From: Ruminococcus sp.
GTDB taxonomy: Bacteria; Bacillota; Clostridia; Oscillospirales; Ruminococcaceae
DNA length: 33,751 nt
Assembly (NCBI GenBank): GCA_021200215.1
Contig: JAJQGV010000089.1
Location: forward strand, 1-33,751
Direction: 5' to 3'
A program made the translations under genes and the position numbers. The notes below the pieces were generated by a model, which saw nothing but the letters and a program-made list of their open reading frames with translations, had not been told where the DNA came from and made no database searches. Shown piece after piece: positions 11,901 to 25,620 of this stretch. Position 1 is the stretch's first letter. Every line of letters begins with the position of its first letter.

Positions 11901-11985
11901 GAGAAATTTCTATTTTTTATTGCCTAGTATTTAAAAAAAATTTTTACGCAAAGATATAATATATAGATTTTAACATATTTCGTAC

Positions 11986-12035
11986 GTTTCAACTCACGCT
12001 CGGTATATTATCGGAGTGCGACGTGCGTACATTAA
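11986..12035 (-). repeat. Dispersed repeat copy A (CRISPR-repeat-like)
   Basis: Reverse strand TTAATGTACGCACGTCGCACTCCGATAATATACCGAGCGTGAGTTGAAAC; matches copy C with 2 mismatches over ~46 nt. Confidence 0.8.
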
Positions 12036-12142
12036 GGGTACAGAAGTTACATTAGCAAAGGAATCTTTAATACTATTTTAGCAGATATTTTCTAAAATGC
12101 AATACCTTGAATCAAATTTTTTAGAAAATTTTTAAAAAACTC

Positions 12143-14628: not shown

Positions 14629-14648
14629 TTAATAGTTGTAAAATAATC

Positions 14649-14684
14649 TCCCACTTAGGGGTATTCTCTAAGTGGGATTGCTTT
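14649..14684 (+). terminator. Terminator after GH31 gene
   Basis: TCCCACTTAG-gggtattct-CTAAGTGGGA then TTGCTTTT. Confidence 0.7.
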
Positions 14685-14708: not shown

Positions 14709-14732
14709 GTTTGTTTGTTTGTTTATTTATTT
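14709..14732. repeat. Tetranucleotide microsatellite (TTTG)n/(TTTA)n
   Basis: gtttgtttgtttgtttatttattt. Confidence 0.85.
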
Positions 14733-14767
14733 CAATCCACGCTCAGTATTATTGAGCGACGTGTGTG
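14729..14767 (-). repeat. Solitary type I-C CRISPR-repeat-like sequence (copy B)
   Basis: Reverse strand GTCGCTCAATAATACTGAGCGTGGATTGAAAT (32 nt, 14729-14760): CGCTCA/TGAGCG stem and GTGGATTGAAAT 3' end; no second repeat at spacer distance. Confidence 0.65.
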
Positions 14768-15783
14768 TGTTGAACCTCATTAGATATATATTCCACAGAT
14801 ATATCACTTGTATAAGATATATCTGTTAAGATTGAATAGTCTACTAACTCATTACCGCAATATCCCTCATATTTTAATACTACACCAGTGGTATTATCTA
14901 CGTACATTGTAAAGTTATCAACGTTGAACTTTTCGCCGTATTCGGTGTAGCCACCTTGAACTACTGTGCAGTATCTACCAAGATATTCATCTGTACCGAT
15001 TATGTTCCAATCGTCAAAATCTTCAAGATATCCAAATGCTAAATATTGTGGAAATAGATTCAATTCAGCAGAAAGTATATTAGTTGGATTCTCTCTGTAA
15101 ACATAGTTTTTGTAACCATCTTCATCTATGTAGCTTCTATCACCGCTTACTTTACTAGCAGTAACCTTTGAAGAAACGTAAATATCATTATAAGATATAT
15201 TATCATCAGAGTTACTAATCTTTACAGATTTTATTGCAACTGCATTACTTCTAATAGCATTAGATACACTTTCATCGAAGGAGTTAAACGAACCATAGTT
15301 TATGTAATCAAGTTGAGCATTAGACATATCCAATGACATATCATCGGTGTTGAGTGAACTTCTATCGATATTGTAAACTTTTTCTTCAAAGATACCCTTA
15401 ACTAAGTCAGAACTAAATTCTGTACATATGGAATAGTCTATGTTTCCATATGCTACAACGCAAGTTCCACTAACCATATCATAGTAATCTATGCTGTTTA
15501 GCATCATGTAGTATATATCATCTTTAGAGAGTTGAGTACTGCTGTTATCTACATCTAGGTTAGAATATGTATACTCATCATAGAAGAGTTGTTTACTCAA
15601 ATCATCTATGAATACAGAACTTGTAGTAACCTCTTCACTAGGAGTTTCTTGTGTAGTAACTTCAACGGTTGCAACTTTAGATTCTTCATTAGAGCTACCT
15701 ATAGTTTCATTCGCAGAAACCGTGATTGCACTCACGATTGCTAAACATGATAGGATTCCTACTATACTAAAACATTTTTTCAT
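14749..15783 (-). CDS. Secreted protein with RseB/LolA-like C-terminal region, function unknown
   Basis: 344 aa; signal peptide MKKCFSIVGILSCLAIVSAITVSA; C-terminal IIGTDEYLGRYCTVVQGGYTEYGEKFNVDNFTMYVDNTTGVVLKYEGY resembles sigma-E regulatory/LolA folds. Confidence 0.65.
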   Translation of the reverse strand: MKKCFSIVGILSCLAIVSAITVSANETIGSSNEESKVATVEVTTQETPSEEVTTSSVFIDDLSKQLFYDEYTYSNLDVDNSSTQLSKDDIYYMMLNSIDYYDMVSGTCVVAYGNIDYSICTEFSSDLVKGIFEEKVYNIDRSSLNTDDMSLDMSNAQLDYINYGSFNSFDESVSNAIRSNAVAIKSVKISNSDDNISYNDIYVSSKVTASKVSGDRSYIDEDGYKNYVYRENPTNILSAELNLFPQYLAFGYLEDFDDWNIIGTDEYLGRYCTVVQGGYTEYGEKFNVDNFTMYVDNTTGVVLKYEGYCGNELVDYSILTDISYTSDISVEYISNEVQHTHVAQ

Positions 15784-24479: not shown

Positions 24480-25553
24480 ATGAATAAAAAAATCGCAGTA
24501 ATTAAAGGCGATGGAATAGGCCCTGAAATAGTCACTGAGGCTATGAAAGTTCTTGACAGGATAGGCGAGAAGTTTGGTCATAATTTTGAATATACAGAAG
24601 TATTAATGGGTGGTTGTGCTATAGATGCTACAGGTTCACCACTACCACAAGAAACTATAGATACTTGTTTAGCATCTGATAGTGTTCTACTAGGTGCTGT
24701 AGGTGGCCCTAAATGGGATAATCTAGCTGGAAATCAACGCCCTGAAAAGGGATTGTTAGGAATCCGTTCAGCATTAAAGTTATTTGCTAACATTCGACCT
24801 GCAAAACTATTCCAACCTTTAGCTAGTGCGTGTCCATTAAAGGAAGAAATTACTGCTAATGGTTTGGATTTAGTTATAGTTAGAGAATTAATCGGTGGTG
24901 CATATTTCGGAGAACGCTCTACTACTACTGATGAAAACGGTGTGGAAAAAGCAGTGGATACCATGCCTTACTCCGATTTTGAAATAGAACGCATTATGAA
25001 AGTTGCTTTCGATATGGCTAGAAAAAGACGTGGCAAGGTAAACTCTGTGGATAAGGCTAACGTTTTAGATACTTCAAGGCTTTGGAGAAAGATTGCTCAT
25101 AGGTACGCTGAATTAAATCCAGATATACAGTTTGAAGATACCCTTGTTGATAACTGTGCTATGCAACTAGTTAGAAACCCTGCTCAATTTGATGTTATAG
25201 TTACTGAGAATCTATTTGGAGATATTCTATCCGATGAGGCTAGTATGATTACTGGTTCTCTTGGTATGATTCCTAGTGCTAGTTTAGGTGAAACATCATT
25301 GGGATTGTATGAACCTATTCATGGTTCTGCCCCCGATATTGCAGGACAGAATAAGGCTAACCCTATAGCTACTATACTATCCGTTGCCATGATGCTACGC
25401 TACTCTTTCGATATGCCTACAGAAGCTGATGCTATAGAAAATGCAGTAAACTCTGTTCTTGAAGATGGCTATCGTACGGGAGATATTATGAGTGATGGTA
25501 TGAAGTTTGTTACTTGCTCTGAAATGGGCAATCTAATTACTGAGAGAGTTTAA
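24480..25553 (+). CDS. leuB: 3-isopropylmalate dehydrogenase
   Basis: 357 aa; IAVIKGDGIGPEIVTEAMKVL, LLGAVGGPKWDN, VTENLFGDILSDEASMITGSLGMIPSASLG, YEPIHGSAPDIAGQNKANPIA. Confidence 0.97.
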   Translation: MNKKIAVIKGDGIGPEIVTEAMKVLDRIGEKFGHNFEYTEVLMGGCAIDATGSPLPQETIDTCLASDSVLLGAVGGPKWDNLAGNQRPEKGLLGIRSALKLFANIRPAKLFQPLASACPLKEEITANGLDLVIVRELIGGAYFGERSTTTDENGVEKAVDTMPYSDFEIERIMKVAFDMARKRRGKVNSVDKANVLDTSRLWRKIAHRYAELNPDIQFEDTLVDNCAMQLVRNPAQFDVIVTENLFGDILSDEASMITGSLGMIPSASLGETSLGLYEPIHGSAPDIAGQNKANPIATILSVAMMLRYSFDMPTEADAIENAVNSVLEDGYRTGDIMSDGMKFVTCSEMGNLITERV

Positions 25554-25599
25554 TGTACGCACGTCGCACTTCGATAGTATACCGAGCGTGAGTTAAAAA
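25550..25599 (+). repeat. Dispersed repeat copy C (CRISPR-repeat-like), starts at leuB stop
   Basis: TTAATGTACGCACGTCGCACTTCGATAGTATACCGAGCGTGAGTTAAAAA; near-identical to copy A in opposite orientation. Confidence 0.8.
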
Positions 25600-25620
25600 T
25601 TAAAAAATTTCCCCTTAAAA

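Follow-up and report, generated by a model that had tools for sequence, protein, structure and literature searches.

Close to the 3' end of a gene at 14729-14760 (-) of the window (the whole stretch of 33,751 nucleotides analysed) lies a 32-nt hairpin with the appearance of a single type I-C CRISPR repeat, and the question is whether it is a relic of a CRISPR array or the end of something else. The 32-mer, GTCGCTCAATAATACTGAGCGTGGATTGAAAT, is present with 0 mismatches as described in the first-pass annotation. It has the GTCGC...GCGTGGATTGAAAY frame, the stem and the length (32-33 nt) of a type I-C repeat, and it folds into a 6-bp stem with a 7-nt loop (z -2.4), with a terminal pairing of TTCAA with TTGAA. 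The sequence had been called solitary, and in a strict sense this stands, as the 32-mer occurs once and no second copy within 3 mismatches was found in the window (0 expected from shuffling) or in the 1.887-Mb assembly (164 contigs, 92.75% complete). In a wider sense it does not, as two diverged relatives are located in the same window (11984-12036 (-) and 25549-25601 (+)) and an I-C-type array as well as other single repeats are found elsewhere in the genome. The hairpin itself is not part of an array, i.e., of two or more repeats with unique spacers of about 34 nt between them. The exact stem (GTCGCTCA-N7-TGAGCG) with its tail was absent in scans of GTDB genomes and IMG/VR, BLAST against phages and plasmids gave no matches, and neither the hairpin nor the element described below matched an Rfam family at the gathering score. 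A match of the hairpin to the Rfam family CRISPR-DR9 (14.9 bits against a cut-off of 45) was discarded and is not evidence.

A chance hairpin in ordinary 3'-end DNA, e.g., part of a terminator between convergent genes, is very unlikely. The genes on either side, one of them yicI-like, are convergent and a separate stem-loop adjoins at about 14648-14683, but no T-tract follows the hairpin on either strand. Sequence composition alone predicts about 1e-6 matches to the fixed I-C positions in a window of this size, and shuffled sequences gave 0 matches to the 32-mer. The two clear relatives in the same window, and the multi-copy family to which they belong, also speak against coincidence.

The hairpin does resemble type I-C repeats. 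A covariance model (R2) was built from 22 I-C repeats of the same bacterial family, in which arrays carry repeats such as GTCGCTCCCTACGCGGGAGCGTGGATTGAAAT. It scored the hairpin at 33.3 bits (E 1.2e-5 for the window and 6.4e-4 for the genome), compared with 43.1 bits for the repeats of the host array. The GTCGC start, the stem-loop, the GTGGATTGAAAY end and the length of 32 nt are all those of a type I-C repeat. The host array is type I-C-like, has a leader and comprises at least 28 repeats of 33 nt (GTCGCTCCTCACACGAGGAGCGTGGATTGAAAT); 26 of them (C2:35607-37321; L099 7608-9322) extend to the edge of contig C2, and the end of contig C38 has another three (L100). No cas genes flanking the array were found, and the search for a type I-C cas locus came out negative, with neither Cas1 (PF01867) nor Csd2/Cas7c (TIGR02589) detected in the 92.75%-complete assembly (G000). 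The hairpin and the host repeat agree at all 23 outer positions (7 + 16 nt; GTCGCTC...GAGCGTGGATTGAAAT).

This identity, together with the R2 score, favors the view that the hairpin is a stray, decayed copy of the host repeat, one that was left behind or inserted as a single unit where a chromosomal gene has its 3' end. We regard this as unlikely, but take it seriously as a rival, since the genome does have isolated host repeats, with 3-4 mismatches, at the ends of chromosomal genes. One (C84:11875-11907; L103 2376-2408) follows a terD-like gene, and another (C20:2246-2278; L110 1247-1279) encodes the C-terminus VAPHTRSVD-stop of a glgB-like gene. On the other hand the inner stem and loop of the hairpin are completely different from those of the host repeat. 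The 22 family repeats in the model have mostly C/G-rich inner stems, and the absence of the exact stem and tail from GTDB genomes argues in the same direction. Truly solitary I-C repeats are rare in the surveyed family, since on a looser scan nearly all matches in genomes with a single I-C match turned out to be inside arrays.

R2 also picked up about 20 hairpins of 37 nt dispersed over the genome, which form the 3' ends of an element of 188 bp. The full element (about 188 bp, TTTAAC...GAGCGTGGATTGAAACAA; consensus TTTAACTAATTTCAGCAAGAATTCCCCCACTTCAACAGTGTAAGTGGCGAGATGAATTGCTAAAAGGAAACTTAACGGCAGTGGTGGGCGGAGAGAAATCGGTATCCCCTACTGACACGAGGTCAATTCATGCGTACCAATGTACGCACGTCGCACTCCGATAATATACCGAGCGTGGATTGAAACAA) is present in at least 40 copies with 75-96% identity to the consensus; 40 copies were scored among 78 candidates, and the copy numbers are lower bounds. 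From left to right it comprises a target-like TTTAA, a left hairpin that resembles the left end of TnpB transposons, a core that is structured and conserved, and a right hairpin with GTGGATTGAAAC at its end. The copies are located between unrelated genes, many of them starting where the upstream gene has its stop codon, and this gene was on the same strand as the element for 35 of 36 copies (binomial p ~1e-9 against 0.5). The sense bias exceeds the expectation from replication-strand bias alone. Given this strong bias and the invariant core, the full element may have a role as RNA as well.

Shortened copies are found as well. Two left-only deletion copies (C30:11243 and C75:720) have the left hairpin joined directly to (G)GATTGAAAT, a fusion that marks both termini of the element. 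Right-only copies of about 50 nt, in which TTYAA is followed after 8-10 nt by the right hairpin (GTCGC..TTGAAAY), are found in about six places, including contigs C149, C40 and C46 and the two loci in the window. These were scored with a covariance model of the element right end (R3) built from 21 sequences, from which the 14729-14760 hairpin was left out. The copy at 11984-12036 (-) reads CTTAA-TGTACGCAC-GTCGCACTCCGATAATATACCGAGCGTGAGTTGAAAC and scores 67.9 bits. The copy at 25549-25601 (+) reads TTTAA-TGTACGCAC-GTCGCACTTCGATAGTATACCGAGCGTGAGTTAAAA and scores 57.2 bits; the TAA within its TTTAA is the stop codon of a leuB-like gene (24480-25553) with an Iso_dh domain. The family as such, with its ends, structure, distribution and short forms, is shown by the data. 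The retention of two termini in left-only as well as right-only copies is what would be expected if these are mobile ends.

The element is not confined to this genome. One scan of the GTDB species genomes with a core pattern gave 23 loci, located in Hungatella hathewayi, Blautia schinkii, Fusicatenibacter saccharivorans, Oliverpabstia intestinalis, Diplocloster modestus and clostridial MAGs. Most loci start with TTTAAC, TTAAC or TTCAAC, and nearly all finish with GTGGATTGAAAC or a close variant; the TTCAAC start, as in the proposed copy around the 14729-14760 hairpin, is also found in Fusicatenibacter. Covariation among 19 aligned members was observed for left, central and right helices, with 14 pairs changed on both sides compared with 7.8 in shuffles. 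The outer helix CCACGC/GCGTGG did not covary above shuffles and, unlike covariation, single-sequence folding of the full-length element was not significant. The base pairs of the right hairpin vary among members (CGC/GCG, CGG/CCG, CAG/CTG), so that the GTCGC start is not fixed in the element and GTGGATTGAAAC nearly is. Over its 5' 60 nt the element shares 78-83% identity with the left ends of TnpB (IS200/IS605-type) elements in relatives, the right ends of which (...GGGGGAGAATGTCAC) are unlike GTGGATTGAAAC. A single TnpB was found in the host genome, with ends different from those of the element, and no Y1 transposase (PF01797) was detected in its incomplete assembly. Non-autonomous copies can outlive their transposase. 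A literature search, which reached few subscription papers, found no published description of the 188-bp element.

Against this background the hairpin is likely to be a degenerate, right-end-only copy of about 48 bp, TTCAA-CACACACAC-GTCGCTCAATAATACTGAGCGTGGATTGAAAT-AA at 14727-14774 (-), of a dispersed non-autonomous element that is related to the IS200/IS605 type (ssDNA hairpin) or REP-like. Where the short copies have TTYAA 8-10 nt before the hairpin, this sequence has TTCAA exactly 9 nt before GTCGC, and it shares with them the ATAATA loop and the TAA tail. TTYAA at exactly 9 nt was seen in only 1 of 394 array repeats at the loci fetched (background 0.56%). The lone repeats at C20 and C84 lack TTYAA at that spacing, and its presence here together with a YAA tail speaks against a stray host repeat. 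Part of the flank match is cheap, however, as the upstream (AC)n is of low complexity. When the sequence (TTCAACACACACACGTCGC--TC-AATAATA--CTGAGCGTGGATTGAAATAA) is aligned with a short copy (TTTAATGTACGCACGTCGCACTCCGATAATATACCGAGCGTGAGTTGAAACAA), no gap is needed over the 5' 19 nt, where each of the five differences is a transition. R3, which covers the right hairpin with the GTGGATTGAAAYAA tail, gave 30.3 bits at 14727-14769; the 107 scored CRISPR array repeats reached at most 26.1 bits, whereas the clear copies, those of the window as well as those on C2, scored 57-68 bits. An HMM of six short copies gave 18.0 bits with an envelope of all 48 nt, starting at TTCAAC, and an I-C HMM gave 13.2 bits for the final 16 nt only.

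Some observations argue against this reading. The core hairpin scores higher under R2 than any confirmed element copy (at most 27.0 bits), and three small deletions are needed to derive it from the element. That the assembly yielded no Y1 transposase, and only a TnpB with different ends, counts against it too. Pairwise alignment of the core is undecided between CRISPR repeat and element (32 vs. 33). The sequence thus lies between the two sets, and its core alone does not separate R2 from R3 cleanly (33.3 vs. 30.3 bits). It is the flanks that tip the balance, and we infer from them that the hairpin belongs to the element family rather than to stray CRISPR repeats. It is read as a transposon-like end because a large dispersed family has the same 3' end and because the anatomy of the short copies is seen at both flanks. 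The original reading as a type I-C repeat is partly supported, in that the layout is of this type and the open reading frame does end inside the hairpin.

The gene that ends here is a 344-aa open reading frame at 14749-15783 (-) with a signal-peptide-like N-terminus, and the earlier statement that it runs into the 32-mer is borne out by a C-terminus of ...EVQHTHVAQ-stop. The 32-mer opens with the 12 nt GTC GCT CAA TAA, which encode VAQ-stop, so that the stop codon is in the hairpin loop; the final codons and the stop (about QHTHVAQ-stop) fall within the proposed element copy. The protein has no Pfam match. Its C-terminus is not conserved, as four homologue matches from three relatives, with 29-36% identity, end in other sequences.

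The most likely course is the following. The hairpin ends of the element would be processed in single-stranded form by an HUH/Y1 transposase acting in trans, by analogy with IS200/IS605 and REP elements (PMC6006769), and mobilization in trans could be due to a Y1 (HUH) or a REP-type transposase. Internal deletions would leave left-only or right-only copies that keep both termini. One right-only copy probably settled at the 3' end of the gene at 14749-15783 and supplied the C-terminus and the stop codon that the gene has today; the resemblance to an I-C repeat would then derive from the right hairpin and the GTGGATTGAAAY tail of the element. Except for providing the last codons of the gene, the copy itself is probably inert.

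The comparison with known systems gives likeness and difference in each case. Some IS605 TnpBs have TTTAA as their insertion site and TAM (PMC11043419), and the element resembles IS200/IS605 (TnpB-type) derivatives in its left target-like TTTAA, its subterminal hairpins and the lack of a clear target duplication. It differs from the TnpB elements in the right end of the 188-bp form, in having a conserved structured core of its own and in its bias toward sense orientation. Homology to IS200/IS605 ends is thus seen for the left 60 nt of the full element and not for its right end, and the 14729-14760 hairpin is without the left hairpin. REP elements are short single-hairpin copies dispersed intergenically, some of which enter reading frames (PMC6006769), and the short copies of the element are similar in these respects. 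In contrast to REP/BIME (RAYT) systems, the element has no GT[AG]G foot and does have a full-length 188-bp form, and no TnpA-Y1 was found in the genome. From a type I-C CRISPR repeat the hairpin differs in being single and without an array, in its inner stem and in its element-like flanks.

A lone CRISPR-repeat-like hairpin is also reminiscent of the Racrs, single repeat mimics that include type I-C ones next to acr genes (PMC10651486), and an I-C-type array is present in the host. That the hairpin is an RNA anti-CRISPR, or another solitary repeat unit that hijacks type I-C proteins, is nevertheless extremely improbable. Published solitary repeat units are reported on viruses and plasmids, whereas no phage, prophage or plasmid setting is seen here; the neighboring genes are chromosomal and belong to xylose, leucine and lysine metabolism. 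The hairpin moreover lies inside the end of a reading frame, its inner stem is unlike that of the host repeat, Cas7c and Cas1 were not found in the assembly, and similar hairpins are present in a genome (G147) in which no Csd2 match was found. A better candidate for a Racr is a single repeat at C99:11747-11779 (+) (L101 2248-2280), which has one mismatch to the host array repeat and is flanked by the genes for a Phd-like antitoxin and a phage major head protein.

What appeared to be a CRISPR relic thus leads to a family of structured elements in Clostridia that is multi-copy, unnamed and without an Rfam model, the copies of which nearly always lie in sense orientation behind genes and are able to supply gene ends. 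It also calls for caution in the search for RNA anti-CRISPRs and orphan repeats, as a "solitary CRISPR repeat" can turn out to be the terminus of a transposon-like element. It is tempting to speculate that the right end of the element and type I-C repeats have a common ancestry or are read by the same protein, although we consider this quite doubtful. If Cas5c were that protein, element transcripts might be cut like pre-crRNA, with adjacent host sequence as guide. If it were a shared mobilizing enzyme, the enzyme that moves the element might also move single CRISPR repeats, which would explain the lone host repeats at C20 and C84 and the 14729-14760 hairpin alike.

Some further features of repeats and element were observed. 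The array repeats of some relatives (L037, L039 and L040) have strongly varying stems and a constant GTGGATTGAAAT tail, e.g., TCGCCGCCTTAAAAGGCGGCGTGGATTGAAAT, which suggests that stems drift fast within these arrays while the tail stays constant. At C35:3575-3722 (-) (L102 2076-2223) there is a degenerate mini-array of another repeat type, with short spacers between its three irregular repeats (GTCACGCCCCAYGCGGGCGTG...TTGAAAT or similar). Finally, one copy of the 188-bp element sits 204 bp upstream of the first repeat of the host array.
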